Shown here: positions 3,311 through 48,944 of the stretch, one piece after another | Layout of the letters: each line of letters begins with the position of its first letter | How positions within the stretch are numbered: the stretch's first letter is position 1 | Assembly (NCBI GenBank): GCA_022561875.1 | Contig: JADFQJ010000017.1 | Span: forward strand, 1 to 50,288 | Length of the DNA stretch: 50,288 nucleotides | Reading direction: 5' to 3' | Origin: Bacteroidota bacterium | GTDB taxonomy: Bacteria > Bacteroidota > Bacteroidia > Bacteroidales > VadinHA17 | Translations under genes and position numbers: made by a program | Notes under the pieces: generated by a model | Database searches by the model: none | Told to the model about the DNA's origin: nothing | Seen by the model: the letters and a program-made list of their open reading frames with translations, nothing else

Positions 3311-5416
3311 ATGCCTGATATCCTGAAAACCGACATACAATTTCTAAACGGGGTTGGACCAAAAAGAGCTGAGTTATTAAGGAAAGAACTACAAATCAAT
3401 TATTTTGAAGATCTTTTGTATTACTTCCCGTATAAATATATCGACCGGACAAAGTTCTATACGATCAGGGAAATAAACAGCAATCTTCCTTACATCCAGA
3501 TCAAAGGCCGTATAACAGGATTCAAAACTGCCGGACATCGAAGGAATAAAAGACTTGTTGCAGAATTTTCAGATAATACAGGTATTATTGAATTGGTATG
3601 GTTCCGTGGTGTTCAATGGATCAAAGACAGTCTTAAGACCGGAAAAGAATATGTTATTTTCGGCAAACCAACTGTTTTCAATAATAAAATAAACTTAATC
3701 CACCCCGAAGTTGAAGACCAGGAAAAATTAAACAGCAAAATCAATGCTTCTTTACAATCCTTTTACAATACGTCCGAAATACTAAAAAAGAGCTGGCTCA
3801 CTTCAAAAGCTATCCAGAAACTGCAAAACAACCTTCTTCAGCATGTTAAAGATAAAATTCCGGAGACAATACCATCTTACCTGCTAAAGGAACTAAATCT
3901 GATATCATTGGAAGAGGCACTTCTCAACATTCATTTTCCACAAAATCCCGGCATTCTCAAAAAAGCAGAATACAGACTGAAATTTGAAGAACTTTTCTAT
4001 ATCCAGATAAATTTACTAAAGCAAAAAAAAACAAGAAATAAAGAATTCAGGGGACATGTTTTTTCAACCGTTGATGATTACTTTAATACTTTTTACCATA
4101 AAAATCTTCCGTTTGAATTAACTTCAGCACAAAAAAAAGTACTTAAGGAAATCAGAAAGGATACCGGTTCCGGCAAGCAGATGAACAGGCTTCTTCAGGG
4201 TGATGTCGGCAGCGGAAAAACACTTGTGGCATTGATGAGCATGCTTATTGGGCTTGATAATGGTTTCCAGGCCTGTATGATGGCTCCCACCGAAATACTT
4301 GCCAAACAGCATTTCCAAACCCTGACAAAAATGCTGGAGAATATGGATATTTATGTAGCCCTGCTTACAGGATCTACAAAACAATCAGAAAGAAAAACAT
4401 TATTTAAAGATCTGAAAGACGGAACACTTCAAATCCTGGTCGGAACACATGCATTAATTGAAGAAACAGTGAAATTCCATAATCTTGGCATTGTAGTTAT
4501 TGATGAACAACATCGTTTTGGTGTTGCCCAGAGAGCAAAACTTTGGAAAAAAAACAAACAACCTCCTCATATTCTTGTAATGACCGCAACACCCATTCCA
4601 CGAACACTTGCAATGACCCTCTACGGTGATCTCGATGTTTCGGTTATCGATGAACTGCCACCGGGAAGAAAACCTGTAATAACAGCCCATTACTATGACT
4701 CGAAAAGATTGAGACTTTTCGGTTTTCTACGTAAACAAATTAAAAAGGGACAACAAATATATATTGTATACCCGCTTATCACGGAATCGGAAAAAATGGA
4801 CTATAAAGATCTGGAAGATGGTTACGAAAGCATTGTAAGAGAATTTCCACCACCTGAATATGCAGTGAGTATAGTGCATGGAAGAATGAAATCCCAGGAA
4901 AAGGACATCGCTATGAAGTATTTTATTAAAGGCCAGACACATATAATGGTGGCTACAACTGTAATCGAAATTGGAGTCGATATATCTAATGCATCGGTGA
5001 TGGTTATTGAAAGTGCTGAAAGATTTGGTTTGTCACAACTTCACCAGTTGCGGGGCAGGGTTGGCAGAGGAGCAGACCAATCTTATTGCATACTTATGAG
5101 TTCAGTGAAACTCACTCACGAAGCAAGAAAAAGGATTGAAATAATGGTAAGGACAAACGATGGTTTTGAAATTGCTGAAGTTGACCTGAAGCTTCGTGGT
5201 CCGGGAGACCTGGAAGGTACACAGCAAAGTGGGATTGCATTCAGCCTGAAAATTGCCAACCTGGCAAAAGACGGACAAATTCTTCAGTATGCAAGAGAAA
5301 AAGCCCAGGAGATAATTAATAAGGATCCTGAACTCGCCAAACCTCATAATTCAGTCCTTATGAAACAACTAAGGAAGCTGAGAAAAGAAAATGTCGACTG
5401 GAGCTCGATAAGTTAG
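3311..5416 (+). CDS. recG: ATP-dependent DNA helicase RecG
   Basis: RecG is a monomeric helicase that remodels stalled replication forks and Holliday junctions. The N-terminal wedge region contains the FLNGVGPKRAELL motif (residues 11-23) and the OB-fold that grips the fork (about 60-135). The helicase core has Walker A GDVGSGKT (297-304), motif II DEQH (398-401), motif III MTATPIPRTLA and the RecG-typical LHQLRGRVGRG with QxxGRxGR geometry. The C-terminus carries the KLRGPGDLEGTQQSG segment typical of RecG/Mfd translocation modules. The length of 701 residues is normal. It stands alone, divergent from the methyltransferase. The rnf cluster follows 95 bp later. Confidence 0.97.
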   Translation: MPDILKTDIQFLNGVGPKRAELLRKELQINYFEDLLYYFPYKYIDRTKFYTIREINSNLPYIQIKGRITGFKTAGHRRNKRLVAEFSDNTGIIELVWFRGVQWIKDSLKTGKEYVIFGKPTVFNNKINLIHPEVEDQEKLNSKINASLQSFYNTSEILKKSWLTSKAIQKLQNNLLQHVKDKIPETIPSYLLKELNLISLEEALLNIHFPQNPGILKKAEYRLKFEELFYIQINLLKQKKTRNKEFRGHVFSTVDDYFNTFYHKNLPFELTSAQKKVLKEIRKDTGSGKQMNRLLQGDVGSGKTLVALMSMLIGLDNGFQACMMAPTEILAKQHFQTLTKMLENMDIYVALLTGSTKQSERKTLFKDLKDGTLQILVGTHALIEETVKFHNLGIVVIDEQHRFGVAQRAKLWKKNKQPPHILVMTATPIPRTLAMTLYGDLDVSVIDELPPGRKPVITAHYYDSKRLRLFGFLRKQIKKGQQIYIVYPLITESEKMDYKDLEDGYESIVREFPPPEYAVSIVHGRMKSQEKDIAMKYFIKGQTHIMVATTVIEIGVDISNASVMVIESAERFGLSQLHQLRGRVGRGADQSYCILMSSVKLTHEARKRIEIMVRTNDGFEIAEVDLKLRGPGDLEGTQQSGIAFSLKIANLAKDGQILQYAREKAQEIINKDPELAKPHNSVLMKQLRKLRKENVDWSSIS

Positions 5417-5531
5417 TCTTCTTTAGAAATATTATTATGGTTATACAAGTTTTTGCCCATAGCAACACTCATTTTTCTTATAATCTTAGTATTTTCGCCA
5501 ATTATATTTTGTGAGGGTGAAAAGAATACAA

Positions 5532-5954
5532 ATGGGAACATCGAAGGAAATTGAACATCCCGGAGTAATTACAAGCATTGACTCTTCCGGAATAAAAGTC
5601 GATATCACAACCTATTCAGCATGTTCATCATGCAATGCAAAAGGTGTTTGTTCCATATCTGACGTTAAGGATAAGATTGTTGAGGTTCCAAACACCGGTG
5701 ATTTTTCGGTTGGACAGGAAGTTCAGGTCATTCTGCATCAAAACCTGGGTTTTAAAGCCATGTACCTGGGATATGTTCAACCTTTTATTATTGTATTAAT
5801 CTCTTTGATTATCACCAGTTCCCTCACCGGTAATGAGTTATTGGCCGGACTCATTTCCCTGGGCACTCTGGCACCTTACTTTCTGATCCTACTTTACTTC
5901 AAAGAAAAAATCAGGAATAAATTTACCTTTGCAATCAAAAAACAGGAACAATGA
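5532..5954 (+). CDS. rseC: RseC/SoxR-reducing system family protein
   Basis: This is a small inner-membrane protein with an N-terminal cytoplasmic cysteine cluster (SACSSCNAKGVCS, spacing CxxCxxxxxC) and two membrane segments (about residues 70-90 and 97-117). RseC-like proteins are linked to reduction of SoxR in E. coli, and in Bacteroidota they head the rnf operon. I chose the ATG at 5532. An upstream GTG at 5511 would add seven basic residues that family members lack. The end overlaps the rnfB start by 4 bp, so translation is probably coupled and the gene opens the operon. The cluster may pass electrons to, or sense, the Rnf complex, which is inference. Confidence 0.85.
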   Translation: MGTSKEIEHPGVITSIDSSGIKVDITTYSACSSCNAKGVCSISDVKDKIVEVPNTGDFSVGQEVQVILHQNLGFKAMYLGYVQPFIIVLISLIITSSLTGNELLAGLISLGTLAPYFLILLYFKEKIRNKFTFAIKKQEQ

Positions 5955-6847
5955 GCAGCGTATTGATCACCATTTTATCTCTCAGTTCAATGGGTATCGT
6001 AGCTGCAATAATACTTTACCTGGTTGCACAAAAATTCAAGGTTCTTGAAAATCCGAAAATAGATGATGTTGAGGATGCACTGCCGGCTACCAATTGTGGA
6101 GGATGCGGGTATCCCGGCTGCAGGAATTTCGCAGAGGTATGTGTAAATTCAGATACTCTTGATGATCTGTATTGCCCGGTAGGCGGACAGGAAACCATGG
6201 ACATTGTAGCAAATCTCCTGGGCAAGGTAGCATTACAAACTGATCCAAGGGTTGCCGTTATACGATGCTCAGGATCATTTGAGAACAGACCGAGAACAAA
6301 CCATTACGATGGTGCTTCATCGTGTGCTGTAGCATCTGCTTTATATGTTGGTGATACTGACTGCCCGGTTGGATGCCTTGGTATGGCTGATTGTGTGGTA
6401 GTGTGTGATTTTGAGGCCATATATATGGATGATAAAACAGACCTGCCGGTTGTAATAGATGATAAATGTACTGCTTGCGGTGCTTGTGTTAAAGCCTGCC
6501 CGAGAGATATTATTGAACTGAGAAAACGGAATAAGAAAGACCGGCAAATATTTGTATCATGTATTAATGAAGAGAAAGGCGGAATTGCTAAAAAATATTG
6601 CTCTGTCGCCTGCACCGGATGTACAAAATGTTTCAAAGTTTGTGAGTTTGATGCAATCACAATGGGCAATAACCTTGCATTTATCGACTCAGATAAATGT
6701 GTACTGTGCAGGAAATGTGTTCCTGAATGCCCAACTGATGCAATACTCGAGATCAATTTCCTGCCCAGAAAAACAAAGCCGGATAAAGAAAAAATAATAC
6801 CCTTAAATAAAATTCCGGAAAAGGTAAAAACCGATATAAAAGAGTAA
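5951..6847 (+). CDS. rnfB: Rnf complex subunit RnfB (electron transport, iron-sulfur)
   Basis: RnfB is the ferredoxin-accepting iron-sulfur subunit of the Rnf complex (ferredoxin:NAD+ oxidoreductase coupled to Na+ or H+ transport). A single N-terminal membrane anchor (residues 3-25) is followed by the 4Fe-4S domain C49GGCGYPGC57 with C75. A second cysteine group, C138-x3-C-x5-C-x3-C152, comes next. Three ferredoxin-type clusters then follow: C173TACGACVKAC183, C221TGCTKCFKVC231 and C250VLCRKCVPEC260. The extra clusters beyond the short proteobacterial RnfB fit the longer version found in Bacteroidota and other anaerobes. The length is 298 residues. It overlaps rseC by 4 bp, and rnfC follows after 39 bp. 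Confidence 0.95.
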   Translation: MSSVLITILSLSSMGIVAAIILYLVAQKFKVLENPKIDDVEDALPATNCGGCGYPGCRNFAEVCVNSDTLDDLYCPVGGQETMDIVANLLGKVALQTDPRVAVIRCSGSFENRPRTNHYDGASSCAVASALYVGDTDCPVGCLGMADCVVVCDFEAIYMDDKTDLPVVIDDKCTACGACVKACPRDIIELRKRNKKDRQIFVSCINEEKGGIAKKYCSVACTGCTKCFKVCEFDAITMGNNLAFIDSDKCVLCRKCVPECPTDAILEINFLPRKTKPDKEKIIPLNKIPEKVKTDIKE

Positions 6848-6886
6848 GTTTATTATGAGATACCTTTATGAAACAGGAGGAACAAG

Positions 6887-8215
6887 GTGTTAAGAACATT
6901 TAGAAAGGGAGGAATTCATCCGGCTGATAATAAACTCACGGAAAAAAACCCTGTTCAAATATTACCCCTTCCTGAGAAAGTGACTATTCCACTTTCACAA
7001 CATGTTGGTACACCTGCAATACCGGTTGTTAACCGAGGTGATAAAGTAAAAGTCGGACAGTTAGTTGCAAAAAGTAAAGGATTTGTGTCAGCCAATATTC
7101 ACTCATCAGTGTCGGGGAAAGTTGTTAAAATCGATTCATTACCTGATCTTACCGGTTATAAAAAACCTGCAGTAGTTATTGAGGTGGAGGGAGATGAGTG
7201 GGAAGATAGCATTATTCAATCAACTGATCTTCAAAAAGATATCACACTTTCAAAAGATGAGATATTAGAAAAGATCCGTGAATCAGGTATTGTAGGATTA
7301 GGAGGTGCAGCATTCCCGACACATGTTAAACTTATACTACCCCACGGTAAAAAAGCAGATGTGCTCATTATTAACGGTGTTGAGTGTGAGCCCTACTTAA
7401 CATCCGATCACAGGCTGATGATTGAATATGGTAGAGAAATGCTGGTTGGCACCCATATCCTTATGAAAGTCTTGAATGTCAGGAAAGCTATGATCGGGAT
7501 CGAAAATAACAAAGCAGATGCTATTAATTATTTGAAAGGAATTAGCTCATACCTGCCGGGGATTAAAGTATATCCTTTAGAAGTAAAGTACCCGCAGGGA
7601 AGTGAAAAACAACTTATTAAAGCTCTTACAGGCAGAGAAGTCCCTTCCCGGAAATTACCTGTTGATGTAGGCGTTATTGTTCATAATGTATCGACAGCAT
7701 ATGCAGTTTACGAAGCTGTTCAAAAAAACAAACCACTGATCAACAGGATAGTAACAGTTTCCGGCAAATCGTTGAAAAACCCATCCAATTTTGTTGTCAG
7801 GTTCGGTACCTCTGTCCAGTTCCTCATTGAAGCAGCCGGCGGTCTTCCGGAAAATACAGGTAAGGTAATAAGCGGCGGGCTGATGATGGGCAAAGCCCTC
7901 AATTCACTGGATGTACCGGTAATAAAAGGAATGACAGGAATACTCATCGTCCCCGGGAATGAAACGAAAAGAAAAGCAATCGAACCCTGCATCCGGTGTT
8001 CAAAATGTGTAACCGTTTGCCCTATGGGACTTGAACCGTATTTATTAATGCCTTTGGCTCAAAATGAGAATTTTTACAGACTGGAAAATGAAATGGTATT
8101 GGATTGTATTGAGTGTGGTTCATGCAGTTATATCTGCCCGGCTAACAGACCTTTACTCGACTATATAAAACTTGGAAAAGTGGAAGTGAATAAGATAATA
8201 AGAGAAAGGAAATAA
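6887..8215 (+). CDS. rnfC: Rnf complex subunit RnfC
   Basis: RnfC is the peripheral NADH/FMN-binding iron-sulfur subunit, related to NuoF. The protein opens with the family-typical TFRKGGIHPADNK. The glycine-rich nucleotide loop lies at GIVGLGGAAFPTH (about residues 135-147), with NGVECEPYL after it. Two 4Fe-4S motifs close the protein: CIRCSKCVTVCPMGLEP and CIECGSCSYICPANRP (roughly residues 367-425). The start is GTG at 6887, supported by a strong AGGAGG 6-11 nt upstream, which is unusual in this AT-rich, SD-poor genome. The length of 442 residues is normal. Confidence 0.96.
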   Translation: MLRTFRKGGIHPADNKLTEKNPVQILPLPEKVTIPLSQHVGTPAIPVVNRGDKVKVGQLVAKSKGFVSANIHSSVSGKVVKIDSLPDLTGYKKPAVVIEVEGDEWEDSIIQSTDLQKDITLSKDEILEKIRESGIVGLGGAAFPTHVKLILPHGKKADVLIINGVECEPYLTSDHRLMIEYGREMLVGTHILMKVLNVRKAMIGIENNKADAINYLKGISSYLPGIKVYPLEVKYPQGSEKQLIKALTGREVPSRKLPVDVGVIVHNVSTAYAVYEAVQKNKPLINRIVTVSGKSLKNPSNFVVRFGTSVQFLIEAAGGLPENTGKVISGGLMMGKALNSLDVPVIKGMTGILIVPGNETKRKAIEPCIRCSKCVTVCPMGLEPYLLMPLAQNENFYRLENEMVLDCIECGSCSYICPANRPLLDYIKLGKVEVNKIIRERK

Positions 8216-40464: not shown

Positions 40465-40605
40465 GAAGAAAAAGGGCAAAAGGCAGTTGGCAGTTGGCAA
40501 GAGGAAGAAAATGATAGGGACATAGAACGATGGAACGATGGAACGATGGAACGATGGAACGAAAATGAGAAGATGAGAAGATGAGAAGATGAGAATAGGA
40601 GAATA
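40465..40605 (+). repeat. Purine-rich repeat trailer with two 8-bp arrays
   Basis: After the stop come AAGAAGTAAGAAGAAAAAGG-type sequence and GGCAGTTGGCAGTTGGCAAG. GAACGATG x4 (40525-40556) and ATGAGAAG x4 with a last variant (40565-40596) follow. The sense strand is almost all purine. The TPR gene starts 70 bp later, after ACGTATAACGTTTAAC, part of which recurs near 43378. Confidence 0.9.
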
Positions 40606-43456: not shown

Positions 43457-45904
43457 CTACTTATTCACCTGCATAAATATTTTATTATATAATTCCTTGG
43501 GGTTGAAAGGTTTCAGTATATAATCATTTAAACCTGCTTTTTGTATTTCGTTTTGCACATCTGACATCGCGCTAGCAGTCAGGGCGATAATAGGAATGTT
43601 CCTGATCTTAGCGTGATCTGATTTACGTATAATTTTTGTTGCCTCAAAACCATTCATTTCAGGCATGTGCAGGTCCATTAAGATCACATCAAAATCATGT
43701 TTATTTACTTTTTCGATTGCCTCCAGACCGTTTTTTACAATTTCCACATCAATTCCCCACCTGGCAAGAATTTTTTTTACCACAATGGCGCTCATCTCGT
43801 TATCTTCAGCTAAAAGGACTTTCTTTCCTGCAAGCTGATCAAATTCTTTATCTCCGGCATGTTCCTGTATCAATGATTTCTGTTCACTTTTCTTAAATTC
43901 AAGTGTGAAGAAAAATTTTGATCCTTTACCAACTTTACTTTCAAGCTCCAGTTTCCTGCCCTGAAGTTCGATCAACCGTTTACAAATAGCCAATCCCAGT
44001 CCGGTACCACCAAATTTTCTGGTTGTATCTGCACTTGCCTGTTTGAAGCTCTCAAAAATAATTTTTTGTTTATCTTCCGGTATTCCAATGCCGGTATCGG
44101 TAACGGAGAATTTCAAATCCATCTTTTTCTTTCCGGTATTCACAACTATTACTTCAATTGTAATTGATCCCTTTTCAGTAAACTTAACCGCATTTCCAAT
44201 CAGGTTGGTAAGCACCTGGTTCAGGCGGGCGGCATCACCAACGATGATTTCGGGCAATTCAGAATCTGTCAGCACTTTCAATTTGATCCCCTTTTCTTCG
44301 GCACGGAAGCGGAAAGATTGCCTGATACCATGTATTAGATCCTTGAGATTAAAATCAGCCTTTTCAAAGAATATATTACCGCTTTCAATTTTATTGAAGT
44401 CAAGAACATCGTTGATCAGTGTCATTAAATTATCTCCTGAAAATTTCAGGGAATTTAAAAACTCGAGTTGCTCTTTTTTAGGATCTTCCTGGAGCAGGAG
44501 ATACGTCATACCCAATATAGCATTCAGAGGAGTCCGGATCTCATGACTCATTATTGAAAGGAACTGTTGTTTTGCCAGAGTTGCTTCTTCTGCTACCTGC
44601 CTGGCTTTCTTCAGATCTTCTTCATTTTTCAATTTGTTTATAGCCAGTGCTGCCTGACTGGCAATAAATTTAAGTATTCCAAAGTCTTCTTTAGTATAGG
44701 TATCTTCTGATACATAGCTCTGCAGACATATTGCTCCAATAGTTTCACCATCAGTTTTCAAAGGAACACCAAGCCATACTTTCGAGGAGGTTCCAACTAA
44801 TTCAATTTCCCCTTCCTTCTCAAGTTTCTTCATATCTGCCTCTTTCGCAAGTAATGGTTTGTTTGTTCTAATTACAAATCCGGTTAGAGTTTTTCCTGCA
44901 GGAAATTCTTCGAATTTGTCCTTTTCATCTTCAAAAAAGGGCAATGAAAGAGTATCCTTTTCTTTATTATAAAGAGCTATGTAGAAATTCTTTGTATCGA
45001 TCCATGCACCTATTTCATTCCTGATAATAACAAATAATTCCTGTAGATTGTCAGTTGTTAATACGGCATTTGAAATATTTTGTGCCAGTTTCTCAACAGC
45101 TTCAGACTTTTTTCTTTTAGAGATATCACGATAAATTGCGTATAAGCCAAATGGTTTATTATCTAACATGATAGGTGTTGCAAGAAGGGATACATTAATT
45201 TCATGCCCATCTTTATGTCTCCTTTTGGTTTCCAGAGAAGCTGTCTGACCTTTTTGAACTTTATTGGTTATCTCACCGGCTTCTTTTTTTCTTTTTCCCG
45301 GGGCTATCAGATCATCAATTTGTTTTCCTATGCTTTCTTTACTGCTGTAGCCAAACAGTTTGGTAAATTCTTTATTGATAGTCTTTACTTTCCCATCTTT
45401 CTCACAAAGGGCAATAGCTTCGGGTGCTTCTTCAATGAATTGCTCCAAATAAGCAGACTTTAGTTCCAGTTCCTGTTCAGACTTTTTCTGGTCGGTAACA
45501 TCATTATATATGGTTAGAAGAAATATTTCATCTTTGATTTTTATGGTCTCTGCAGAAAAAAGTACATCCCTTGGAGTTCCTGAACTGGTGTTCATCCTGA
45601 CTTCAAAATCCCTTACTTTATTGAGTTTTGCAAGTTTTGAGAGAAATTTATCACTCTGGATTATATCGATAAACAGTTGCAGTTCATTTGAAGTATGATC
45701 AATTACTTCTTCAGGTTTGTATTCAAGGAAATCAAGAAAAGCTTTATTGACATCAATATATTTTGCATCCTCAAACCTGCTGATTGCCATAGGTGTAGGA
45801 TTTGACTGGAATACCTGGTAAAACACTTCATCTCTCCAGGAAATAATTCCTTTTGATCCATTCTTCACTGTTTTAGTCTTTTTATTGTCCTGTTGTTTTC
45901 CCAT
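43457..45904 (-). CDS. Hybrid sensor histidine kinase (PAS-PAS-GAF-HisKA-HATPase-REC)
   Basis: A soluble 815-residue hybrid kinase. Two PAS domains (about residues 27-137 and 150-262), a GAF domain (about 275-425) and a short coiled coil precede the dimerisation domain with phospho-acceptor H454 in SIMSHEIRTPLNA. The ATPase domain has the N box (NLIGNAVKFTEKG), DTGIGIPEDK and GGTGLGLAI. A receiver domain (about 695-812) has AEDNEMS, the phospho-aspartate D744 in ILMDLHMPEMNG, and the switch residues T/K in ALTASAM and YILKPF. There is no membrane segment, so the signal is probably cytoplasmic, perhaps redox or a ligand. The output partner is not in the window. Confidence 0.95.
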   Translation of the reverse strand: MGKQQDNKKTKTVKNGSKGIISWRDEVFYQVFQSNPTPMAISRFEDAKYIDVNKAFLDFLEYKPEEVIDHTSNELQLFIDIIQSDKFLSKLAKLNKVRDFEVRMNTSSGTPRDVLFSAETIKIKDEIFLLTIYNDVTDQKKSEQELELKSAYLEQFIEEAPEAIALCEKDGKVKTINKEFTKLFGYSSKESIGKQIDDLIAPGKRKKEAGEITNKVQKGQTASLETKRRHKDGHEINVSLLATPIMLDNKPFGLYAIYRDISKRKKSEAVEKLAQNISNAVLTTDNLQELFVIIRNEIGAWIDTKNFYIALYNKEKDTLSLPFFEDEKDKFEEFPAGKTLTGFVIRTNKPLLAKEADMKKLEKEGEIELVGTSSKVWLGVPLKTDGETIGAICLQSYVSEDTYTKEDFGILKFIASQAALAINKLKNEEDLKKARQVAEEATLAKQQFLSIMSHEIRTPLNAILGMTYLLLQEDPKKEQLEFLNSLKFSGDNLMTLINDVLDFNKIESGNIFFEKADFNLKDLIHGIRQSFRFRAEEKGIKLKVLTDSELPEIIVGDAARLNQVLTNLIGNAVKFTEKGSITIEVIVVNTGKKKMDLKFSVTDTGIGIPEDKQKIIFESFKQASADTTRKFGGTGLGLAICKRLIELQGRKLELESKVGKGSKFFFTLEFKKSEQKSLIQEHAGDKEFDQLAGKKVLLAEDNEMSAIVVKKILARWGIDVEIVKNGLEAIEKVNKHDFDVILMDLHMPEMNGFEATKIIRKSDHAKIRNIPIIALTASAMSDVQNEIQKAGLNDYILKPFNPKELYNKIFMQVNK

Positions 45905-45970: not shown

Positions 45971-48175
45971 TCAATAAACAAAAATCCTTCCTTTATTTTT
46001 ATTGATCACTTCACCAATAACAGATGCATCATGTACTCCTTTTGCTGTTAATTCATTTACCAGTTTTTCTGCATGTTCACGGGGAACGGATATTAACAGA
46101 CCGCCGGAAGTTTGGGCATCAGCCAGAATTATTTTATCAGTTTCAGGAAAATCCTCGGGCCATTCAACAAATTCCGAAACATAATCCAGGTTATTTACGG
46201 TACCGCCGGGAATGATATTAGCTGTAACAAATTTCTTTACTCCATGAATTACGGGTACTTTTTCCGAAAACAGGTTAATCTCAACTTTGCTTGCCCTCGC
46301 CATTTCAAAAAGATGACCTAATAATCCAAAACCAGAAACATCAGTGCAGGCATTAACATTATAGTTCTTCATGACTTCCGCGGCAGTTTTGTTCAGATAA
46401 GCCATTAATGATATTAATTTTTCCCGGGAATCATCTTCCAGCAGACCCCGTTTAAGTGCCGTTGCCAGTATTCCTGTGCCAATTGATTTGGTGATTATAA
46501 TATGATCACCGGGTTTTGCAGCGGAATTGGTCAATATCCTGTCAGGGTGAACTTTCCCGGTTACCACCATCCCGAATTTTGGTTCGGTATCATCAATTGT
46601 ATGCCCTCCGATTATAGATATACCTGCTTCGGCAGCTTTTTTATTTGCTCCTTCAAATATCTTCCTGAGAACGCTCAGTGGCAGTCTGTTTGATGGAAAA
46701 CCGGCAATATTAAGTGCGAACAAAGGTTCTGCTCCCATAGCGTAGATATCGCTTAAAGCATTGGCTGCTGCAATTTCTCCAAATTGGAATGGATCATCCA
46801 CCACAGGTGTAAAGAAGTCGACTGTTTTTACCAATGCTGTCTCCTTGTTTAGTTTATAAACAGCAGCATCATCAGATGTATCGAGTCCTACAAGAATGTT
46901 AGGGTCGGTTGGTAATTTAAAATCCTTAAGCGCTTCTTCAAGGGCCTGTGGACGGAGTTTACATGCGCAGCCGAGTCCCTGGGTGAAATGTGTGAGCTTG
47001 ATTTCGCCTGATTCTACGTGAGGTCGATCACCTGTTTCCTGATCTCTGCTGAGGTTTTTTACCGTTTGAATGATCTCGTCTGCTGCCCGGTTGATTTCTT
47101 CTTCAGTTGTAAACCTGCCGGTAGAAAAACGAATGGTTCCCATAGCAAATTCAACAGGGACTTTCATTGCCGTTAATACATAAGATATGTCAATATTATC
47201 TGTGTGACAGGCTGCTCCTGCTGATGCTGCTACATGGTCAAGCCCGGATATCAGGGTATTGGCTTCCGTATTATGAAATCCTATACTCAAAGTGTTGGGC
47301 AGACAGTTTTTGAGATCTCCGTTTATTCGGGTTTGTTTTAATTCATTTGTTAATCTATTTGCCAGGATATCCCTCATCTTTTTCATATGCGGGTGGTTCT
47401 TCTCAAGGTCTCTTCCCGCAATTTCACAAGCTTTGCCTAAACCGGCAATCTCAATGACATTTTCAGTTCCCGGACGCATATTTCTTTCATGATCGGCGCC
47501 ATGTATGATCTTTTCCAGTTTTATCCCATGTTTTATATATAACGCACCGATACCTTTTGGGGCATATAGTTTATGTCCTGCAACGGAGAGAAGATCGACC
47601 CCTGTTTTTTTTACGGATACAGGTATTTTTCCCAATGACTGGGCTGCATCAGTATGAAAAGGGATCTTGTTTTTCTTGGCTATTTTTGATATCTCTTCAA
47701 TGGGCTGGATAGTTCCCACCTCATTATTTGCATGCATTACAGTGATCAAAATGGTTTCAGGGGTTATTGCCGAAACAACCTCCTTTAAGCTTATTAACCC
47801 ATTTTCATCCACAGGAACATATGTAATTCTGAAGCCTTTTTTCTCAAGGTATTTACAAACCTCTGTCACAGCAGGGTGCTCGATAGCTGAGGTTATAATA
47901 TGGTTTCCCTTTGATTGATTTGCAAAGGCAATTCCCTGGATGGCAAAATTGTTGGATTCGGTCCCCCCACTGGTAAAGATAATCTCATCCGGCTGGCATT
48001 CCAGCAGGGCTGCAACCTGTTCTCTTGCCTTCGCAATTGCCATTTTTGTCTGCATACCATACCAGTGCAAACTGCTTGGATTCCCAAAATACTCACTGAT
48101 AAATGGTTGCATTGCTTCAATTACCTCTTTATGAAGCGGGGTGGTTGCATTATAATCAAGGTAAATTTTTTCCAT
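45971..48175 (-). CDS. selD: Cysteine desulfurase fused to selenide, water dikinase (NifS-SelD)
   Basis: Residues 1-375 are a class V aminotransferase of the NifS/IscS type: DYNATTPLH, SGGTESNN, the PLP lysine K202 in SVAGHKLYAPKG, and the active cysteine C323 in SAGAACHTD. After a short linker (about 376-392) comes a complete SelD: FTQGLGCACKLRP with catalytic C403 and K406, LDTSDDAAVYKL, GEIAAANALSDIYAMGA, IIGGHTIDDTEPKFG, DVSGFGLLGHLFEMA and DAQTSGGLLISV. SelD makes selenophosphate from selenide and ATP; the desulfurase half can release selenium from selenocysteine or carry it as a perselenide, so the fusion could channel selenium. The order and length (734 residues) have no frameshift. 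selA, selB or a tRNA-selenouridine synthase are not in the window. The start is 31 nt after a CTGAATAGTTAC box. Confidence 0.95.
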   Translation of the reverse strand: MEKIYLDYNATTPLHKEVIEAMQPFISEYFGNPSSLHWYGMQTKMAIAKAREQVAALLECQPDEIIFTSGGTESNNFAIQGIAFANQSKGNHIITSAIEHPAVTEVCKYLEKKGFRITYVPVDENGLISLKEVVSAITPETILITVMHANNEVGTIQPIEEISKIAKKNKIPFHTDAAQSLGKIPVSVKKTGVDLLSVAGHKLYAPKGIGALYIKHGIKLEKIIHGADHERNMRPGTENVIEIAGLGKACEIAGRDLEKNHPHMKKMRDILANRLTNELKQTRINGDLKNCLPNTLSIGFHNTEANTLISGLDHVAASAGAACHTDNIDISYVLTAMKVPVEFAMGTIRFSTGRFTTEEEINRAADEIIQTVKNLSRDQETGDRPHVESGEIKLTHFTQGLGCACKLRPQALEEALKDFKLPTDPNILVGLDTSDDAAVYKLNKETALVKTVDFFTPVVDDPFQFGEIAAANALSDIYAMGAEPLFALNIAGFPSNRLPLSVLRKIFEGANKKAAEAGISIIGGHTIDDTEPKFGMVVTGKVHPDRILTNSAAKPGDHIIITKSIGTGILATALKRGLLEDDSREKLISLMAYLNKTAAEVMKNYNVNACTDVSGFGLLGHLFEMARASKVEINLFSEKVPVIHGVKKFVTANIIPGGTVNNLDYVSEFVEWPEDFPETDKIILADAQTSGGLLISVPREHAEKLVNELTAKGVHDASVIGEVINKNKGRIFVY

Positions 48176-48206: not shown

Positions 48207-48320
48207 GTAACTATTCAGTGCCTAAAGTTAAAAGCGCCTAAAATGCCTAAAGTGTTACGAGTTACGGGTTACGAGTTACGAGTACGCTTTTGCCTTCTGC
48301 CTTTTGCCTTTTGCCTTCTT
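48207..48320 (-). repeat. Intergenic repeat module ending in CTGAATAGTTAC (copy B)
   Basis: On the minus strand the order is 7-bp GGCAAAA words (48295-48318, still inside nth), TACTCGTAACTCGTAAC and variants, then ACTTTAGGC and TTTTAGGCGC words, ending in CTGAATAGTTAC (48207-48218), 31 nt before the SelD-fusion start. The order matches copy A at 1435-1512. Confidence 0.8.
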
Positions 48321-48944
48321 ATAATACCTGCAATATTCACGGATACCGCATTCCCGGCATTTGGGCGACCGTGCGGTGCATATATAACGACCATGCAGTA
48401 TAAGCCAGTGGTGTGCAAGAGGAATAATATCCTCAGGGATATAATGTACGAGTTGTTTTTCCGTTTCCAGAGGTGTTTTGGCATTTGTCGAGAGCCCGAT
48501 CCTTGCCGATACCCTGAAGACATGAGTATCAACAGGCATAACCGGTTGTTTAAAAACTACTGCTGCAATAACATTAGCTGTTTTTCTTCCTACTCCCGGC
48601 AATTTCCGGAGTTCATCAATATTCTGTGGAACAACCCCGTTAAAATCATCTGTTAACATTTTTGCCATACCATGCAGATGTTTCGCTTTATTATTCGGGT
48701 ATGAACAGCTTTTAATATATTCGAAAATTTTTTCAGGTGATGCTTTAGCCATGGTTTCAGCGGTGGGGTATTTTGCAAGGAGGGGAGGGGTGATAATATT
48801 CACCCTTTTGTCGGTACATTGGGCTGATAAAATAACTGCCACCAGCAATTGAAAAGGATCGGTATAAATAAGTTCAGTTTCAGCAACAGGCATATGCTCC
48901 ATGAAATATTCAATGACTTTCTGATATCTTTCCCTTTTCGTCAT
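48276..48944 (-). CDS. nth: Endonuclease III
   Basis: Nth is a DNA glycosylase/AP lyase that removes oxidised pyrimidines. SAQCTDKRVN (about residues 40-49) and the helix-hairpin-helix LPGVGRKTANVI (about 112-123) lead to the catalytic lysine (in GRKTAN) and aspartate (MPVDTHVFRVS, about 135-145). The 4Fe-4S motif is C-x6-C-x2-C-x5-C (CTARSPKCRECGIREYC, about 192-208). The length of 222 residues exceeds the usual 211 or so because the C-terminal KKAKGKRQKAKAYS and the stop codon are encoded by a low-complexity repeat. The start at 48944 fits the family. The gene precedes the SelD fusion on the same strand. Confidence 0.96.
   Translation of the reverse strand: MTKRERYQKVIEYFMEHMPVAETELIYTDPFQLLVAVILSAQCTDKRVNIITPPLLAKYPTAETMAKASPEKIFEYIKSCSYPNNKAKHLHGMAKMLTDDFNGVVPQNIDELRKLPGVGRKTANVIAAVVFKQPVMPVDTHVFRVSARIGLSTNAKTPLETEKQLVHYIPEDIIPLAHHWLILHGRYICTARSPKCRECGIREYCRYYKKAKGKRQKAKAYS

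Follow-up and report, generated by a model that had tools for sequence, protein, structure and literature searches.

In Escherichia coli, the activities of IscS, SelD and MnmH together lead to 2-selenouridine in tRNA, all three being encoded by separate genes, and this bacterium also makes selenoproteins. A 2026 review regards the cellular delivery of selenium to SelD as incompletely understood (PMC13188914). In humans, selenocysteine lyase, a PLP enzyme, is thought to pass selenium to the selenophosphate synthetase SEPHS2 by way of a mobile cysteine loop, the two being separate proteins (PMC3266270, PMC3266904), and a SCLY-SEPHS2 complex was reported as demonstrated in Trypanosoma (PMC7595633).

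Fusions of the two activities have also been described. In Geobacter sp. FRC-32, reports of 2008 and 2015 describe an N-terminal NifS-type desulfurase followed by a C-terminal SelD, the latter with a selenocysteine in a CxxU motif and with other Sec genes present (PMC2398784, PMC4561486). NifS-SPS proteins of Acanthamoeba castellanii and Naegleria gruberi, which we liken to the present one by their description, have the same architecture and were ascribed to transfer from bacteria; the part of that report devoted to NifS-SPS gives, besides these two protists, two bacterial instances, of which the second could be a relative of the lineage described here (PMC4561486). In the Ndh-SelD fusion, SelD is likewise joined at its N-terminus to a partner believed to provide or reduce selenium, but this partner is an NADH dehydrogenase-like flavoprotein and its SelD carries CxxC, in place of the C-A-C-K found here (PMC2398784).

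The gene analysed here has the same domain order as that of Geobacter sp. FRC-32, but its SelD is of the Cys type (GCACK), selA was not found in the genome, and mnmH is the only known selenium sink that was found. The architecture is thus already known, as the original prediction had correctly supposed, and what we describe is a Cys-type, selenouridine-linked lineage of the NifS-SelD fusion. A literature search, with most subscription journals outside it, returned nothing on a selenouridine-only, Cys-type fusion lineage in this order. We propose that the fusion is a bifunctional selenium-supply enzyme whose selenophosphate feeds selenouridine synthesis by MnmH, and we put the probability of this reading at roughly 70%.

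The fused gene and its two domains

The features below are numbered along the window, that is, the whole stretch of 50,288 nucleotides that was analysed.

45971..48175, minus strand: whole fused gene (NifS/IscS-type desulfurase, linker, SelD), 734 codons and a stop
47048..48175, minus strand: NifS/IscS-type PLP desulfurase domain, residues 1-376 (Aminotran_5, TIGR03402, Foldseek)
47873..47875, minus strand: P101, equivalent to D146 of human selenocysteine lyase, placed via the E-H-x motif
47579..47581, minus strand: A199, equivalent to V256 of human selenocysteine lyase, placed via the x-G-H-K motif
47570..47572, minus strand: K202, a lysine in 33/33 fusions and in 78/78 stand-alone relatives compared
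47207..47209, minus strand: C323, active-site cysteine of the S-A-G-A-A-C-H loop, a cysteine in 33/33 fusions
47204..47206, minus strand: H324, aligned with H389 of human selenocysteine lyase
47000..47047, minus strand: linker between the domains, residues 377-392, within the stretch 378-410 of pLDDT below 50
45974..46999, minus strand: SelD (selenide, water dikinase) domain of the Cys type, residues 393-734 (TIGR00476, AIRS, AIRS_C)
46967..46969, minus strand: C403, SelD active-site cysteine in G-L-G-C-A-C-K, a cysteine in all 31 aligned rows
46958..46960, minus strand: K406, SelD active-site lysine, a lysine in all 31 aligned rows
48276..48944, minus strand: nth (endonuclease III), upstream neighbour and synteny marker outside the system (TIGR01083, 238.6 bits, cut-off 211.7)
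43457..45904, minus strand: hybrid PAS/histidine kinase, downstream neighbour and synteny marker outside the system, with homologues beside fusions

Translation of the minus strand gave a 734-residue frame with no internal stop, in which a domain search placed Aminotran_5 at residues 4-363 (E 2.7e-80), AIRS at 435-542 and AIRS_C at 554-733. The prediction of a desulfurase and SelD in one intact polypeptide was thus borne out at exactly the stated positions, the strand, which had been left unstated, being the minus one, and the four residues it had named (K202, C323, C403 and K406) were all found in the translation.

The C-terminal half passed the cut-offs of both TIGR00476 (selD; residues 393-701, 389.7 bits against 125) and PRK00943 (378.7 bits against 299), and with both its active-site cysteine and lysine in place, as in all rows of the alignment of fusions and stand-alone SelDs, it is predicted to be an active SelD. 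The N-terminal half has both K202, which by family knowledge we take to be the PLP-binding lysine, and the loop cysteine C323, which place it in the group-I cysteine desulfurase / selenocysteine lyase superfamily. We call it NifS/IscS-type rather than NifS, because its TIGR03402 match (residues 4-375, 486.5 bits) lies under the equivalog cut-off of 530.75, whereas that to the IscS subfamily PRK02948 (NF002806) lies over the cut-off (316.5 bits against 304).

A model of the fusion, predicted from a 17-row alignment, had a mean pLDDT of 78.5 and a pTM of 0.53, a value at which the relative placement of the two domains is not fixed. Its pLDDT fell below 50 at residues 321-328 (the C323 loop) and 378-410 (the linker and the C403 loop). 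Two mobile loops could account for this, and so, just as well, could the shallow alignment. A Foldseek search against the PDB gave nothing on the SelD half among the 50 matches listed, all of them NifS, IscS or SCLY chains; the best of those on the desulfurase half was NFS1 (8rme_A, TM 0.91 by target length).

The selenium sink of the host

The host genome is a 2.77-Mb draft in 104 contigs, estimated as 98% complete. The fusion is its sole SelD over the cut-off, the two weaker matches reaching 69.6 and 35.4 bits, so a stand-alone SelD over the cut-off, which the original prediction had named as part of a refutation, does not appear there. Class-V aminotransferase matches number 13, and four such proteins are annotated besides the fusion: a SufS (over its cut-off), a SerC, a SufS-like protein and a divergent NifS-like one whose 213 bits lie far below the NifS cut-off.

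The earlier remark that no selA, selB or selU is near the fusion is true of the window, and mnmH (selU), the gene of tRNA 2-selenouridine synthase, lies elsewhere in the genome, on contig C61 (355.6 bits against a cut-off of 219.75). Its product contains HCWRGG and GGMTGCGKT, which we take to be functional motifs of the enzyme. The host thus has both selD and mnmH, the combination that defines the SeU trait. Of the other genes by which the sink could be told, selA had no match over the cut-off in any of the 60 genomes that we compared (the host's own and those of 59 relatives), its five weak matches all being outside the host. The tRNA-Sec model gave 17 matches in the host at E <= 10, only one of them over the gathering score (49.1 bits), a score also exceeded in 5 of 14 control genomes; among the five loci scanned with ARAGORN, this candidate was read as tRNA-Ser(tga). 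Selenocysteine as the host's sink was therefore rejected on the absence of selA and on the tRNA-Ser(tga) identity of this match. The selenium-dependent molybdenum hydroxylase trait was rejected as well, since its marker yqeB (TIGR03309) was found in 0/60 genomes at E <= 1e-10. The sink, which had earlier been left open, is by this gene content most likely tRNA 2-selenouridine. One point against this proposal is that, in the host, mnmH lies outside the window and away from the fusion.

The relatives show the same association. A SelD domain is present in 41/60 genomes (25 full-length fusions, 3 cut ones and 13 stand-alone proteins), and mnmH accompanies it in all 41, 40 times over the cut-off and once, in G024, as a partial match, versus 5 of the 19 genomes lacking a SelD domain (Fisher p 7e-10, uncorrected for relatedness). 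Among these five, G002 and G004 miss the nth match together with the SelD domain, which suggests a gap in the draft, and G009 has a scaffold gap within its fusion. In G014 (L054, L214) and G021 (L215), mnmH is kept without any SelD; MnmH was reported to make geranylated tRNA too (PMC4830565), and this role might explain its presence in both. The fusion stands beside mnmH on the same strand in three genomes: in G048 the frames overlap, in G040 mnmH is in two pieces, and in G057 one frame of 151 aa lies between them. A study of more than 2,000 genomes describes Bacteroidetes as lacking the Sec trait and many of them as having SeU (PMC5322559), a pattern that fits the selenouridine reading for the host.

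A different selenium cluster was seen in G046 and G059 (L046, L047), comprising a first protein that is presumably SirA/YedF-like, an EF2568-like aminotransferase, a short frame and selD, with mnmH too in L046; the names of the first and of the short protein are our assumption. These two loci were considered as a second kind of fusion and rejected, the frame of about 800 aa being broken by stops between the aminotransferase-V gene and selD.

The desulfurase half and a proposed route of selenium

In the route that we propose, the N-terminal PLP domain would remove sulfur or selenium from L-cysteine or L-selenocysteine, or else selenium would be loaded onto its cysteine persulfide, and the sulfur or selenium would be carried on C323 in persulfide or perselenide form. 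The SelD at the C-terminus would then convert ATP and reduced selenium near C403 and K406 to selenophosphate, with which MnmH/SelU would turn the wobble 2-thiouridine of tRNA into 2-selenouridine. We infer both enzyme activities and the selenium source from the domains, and a direct transfer from C323 to the SelD site, within one molecule or a dimer, might follow from their union. As the host appears not to make selenoproteins, any free selenocysteine would need an external source or would have to arise by misuse of the cysteine-synthesis route. With the proposed donor and acceptor in one chain, direct selenium delivery becomes testable in a single protein.

Three positions at which the selenium specificity of human selenocysteine lyase (hSCL) was examined are D146, V256 and H389: D146K alone was reported to confer cysteine desulfurase activity, H389T alone to leave cysteine use unchanged (PMC3266270), and the D146K effect was attributed to charge near the active cysteine (PMC3266904). 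In the fusion, only the histidine is matched (H324), P101 and A199 replacing the aspartate and the valine of the mammalian-type Sec-specific enzyme. The equivalent of P101 is a lysine in other group-I enzymes, and that of A199 is mostly a serine elsewhere. This Pro-Ala-His triple is present in 33/33 fusions and in 16 of the 78 stand-alone relatives, and the histidine by itself in 33/33 and 19/78, respectively. The fusion loop S-A-G-A-A-C-H-T-D resembles S-V-G-A-A-C-H-S-D of hSCL, both having G-A-A-C-H, and is unlike that of E. coli IscS (S-S-G-S-A-C-T-S). As a mark of selenium preference the triple is only a hint, because just the histidine matches the lyase and it was H389T that left cysteine use of hSCL unchanged.

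Two controls weakened the triple further as a marker of selenium enzymes. A co-occurrence sample covered 50 of the 80 loci kept in a scan of named genomes (7 fusions, 16 strict Pro-Ala-His enzymes, 3 near ones and 24 others), and SelD was found in 12/16 genomes with a strict stand-alone Pro-Ala-His enzyme versus 11/24 with another stand-alone NifS/IscS, a difference short of significance (Fisher p 0.10). The second control was the Pro-Ala-His enzyme on a plasmid of Rhizobium sullae, within 8 kb of which no selA, selB, selD or mnmH homologue exceeded the threshold, the only match being a chance-like one of 29 residues to MnmH. The nitrogenase NifS proteins from R. etli, Pantoea and Sinorhizobium lack the alanine and the histidine, and 2/3 of them have the proline at 101. 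In Providencia burhodogranariea (L137), mnmH (6799-7887) lies behind a stand-alone NifS-type gene with the triple (5001-6140), both on one strand. We therefore suggest only tentatively, as a rather doubtful extension of the main reading, that the fused desulfurase half is part of a distinct bacterial clade (P101-A199-H324, G-A-A-C-H) preferring selenium to sulfur, a counterpart of mammalian selenocysteine lyase that came to this preference by other residues, and that it would pass selenium from C323 directly to the SelD of its own molecule or dimer, with no free selenide on the way to tRNA 2-selenouridine.

It might also be that the desulfurase half chiefly supplies sulfur, as for the 2-thiouridine that is the substrate of MnmH, that SelD receives free selenide, and that the fusion ties two steps of tRNA modification together. 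We regard this as unlikely. In its favour, NFS1 and IscS outrank selenocysteine lyase in both sequence and Foldseek searches with the desulfurase half, 4/16 genomes with a stand-alone Pro-Ala-His enzyme have no detected SelD, and the R. sullae plasmid copy has none of the selenium genes looked for within 8 kb. On the other hand, neither nitrogenase NifS nor IscS has the active loop of the fusion, which shares its G-A-A-C-H with hSCL, and both the fusion to SelD itself and the linkage of the Providencia enzyme to mnmH point to selenium.

Conservation, spread and locus history of the fusion

Full-length fusions were found in 25/60 genomes, the host included, and three further copies (G026, G031, G040) are cut by a contig end; in G009 the fusion runs into a scaffold gap of 100 N after residue 288. 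By family codes, these 28 genomes span seven families of the order, with 22/36 in the host's own family and 6/24 in others. In a sample of 296 genomes of the phylum, which contains few of the host's order, the fusion occurred only in the host itself among the matches listed (three candidates scored per genome). Compared with four congeners, dN/dS was 0.09-0.12 for the NifS half and 0.10-0.14 for the SelD half, which means that both are under purifying selection, and 0.21-0.40 for the linker over 13 codons. The linker, aligned to residues 377-392, has 10-20 residues in 26 fusions and 16 or 17 in 19 of them.

Phylogenetic trees of the two halves tend to keep the fusions together. In the NifS tree, 27 fusions and one stand-alone row share a starred fork (95) with a poorly resolved interior, five stand-alone rows being mixed among the fusions in a faster version; in the SelD tree, 25 fusions and 3 stand-alone rows form a fork at 89, which is unstarred. 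A single origin of the fusion is compatible with these trees, though unproven.

No family exceeded its cut-off among the 25 matches listed for the downstream kinase, and both nth upstream and a kinase homologue downstream were found at 9 of 15 further fusion loci, the remaining 6 having neither. Between these two markers the relatives form a natural series of three states: nth-fusion-kinase, nth-SelD-kinase and nth-kinase. The second is seen in the three genomes of genus g13 (G018, G027, G033; L059, L060, L061), where SelD stands alone and is nested in the fusion clade of the SelD tree, beside the G010 fusion with a starred support of 99; the simplest account, judging from the tree and the gene order, would be a loss of the NifS half in place. 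In the third state (G014 and G021), nth and the kinase are adjacent, and neither half is there. As the SelD half persists alone at the same locus in g13, the fusion is not required for the persistence of SelD.

These observations also bear on the idea that both domains are active but independent, two genes of one operon having been fused and fixed with no functional coupling. The variable and faster evolving linker, the lone SelD half of g13 and a model that fixes no domain arrangement would all suit such a history. Against it, the fusion is retained in 28/60 genomes of seven family codes, as well as in six or more other named lineages, and the trees of both halves group the fusions, which fits one old, retained event. 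We find this explanation improbable. An assembly artefact, which a 104-contig draft could in principle produce and which the original prediction had listed as a danger, or a decaying gene is effectively ruled out by the same junction in independent drafts (the 25 full-length and 3 cut copies, as well as 7 named genomes) and by the low dN/dS.

The fusions outside the order came from the scan of named genomes, in which the best 80 of at least 595 relatives were kept. Seven of these 80 are fusions, in MAGs labelled Zixiibacteriota, Calditrichaceae, Caldisericaceae, Anaerolineae, Deltaproteobacteria, KSB1 and a Bacteroidetes bacterium. Taken with the 28/60 relatives, they show the architecture to be far more frequent than the published accounts cited above, with one or two bacterial instances, would indicate. 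As selA was found in 6/7 of these carriers and mnmH in 1/7, the fusion is not tied to selenouridine generally, and outside the host's order it seems from gene content mostly to accompany selenocysteine use.

Four of the seven named carriers (L221-L224; G060, G061, G062, G064) carry, beside the fused SelD, a stand-alone one whose gene has an in-frame TGA where the fusion has C403, and the fused Cys-type SelD might conceivably get synthesis started for this selenocysteine copy. In G066 (L097, Bacteroidetes bacterium ADurb.Bin008), the fusion and mnmH occur together with a selA over the cut-off; this selA contrasts with the published statement that Bacteroidetes lack the Sec trait, and the genome is a MAG in which contamination is possible.

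As to the rest of the window, an Rfam scan returned no matches, and a promoter and terminator scan gave 7 promoter-like sites versus 10.0 expected and no terminator-like ones. Intergenic tandem repeats with units of 7-8 bases were seen at 48254-48317, where GTTACGA stands beside the end of nth, and at 40525-40603, and the sequence GTAACTCGTAAC had five matches with at most one mismatch versus 0.12 expected.
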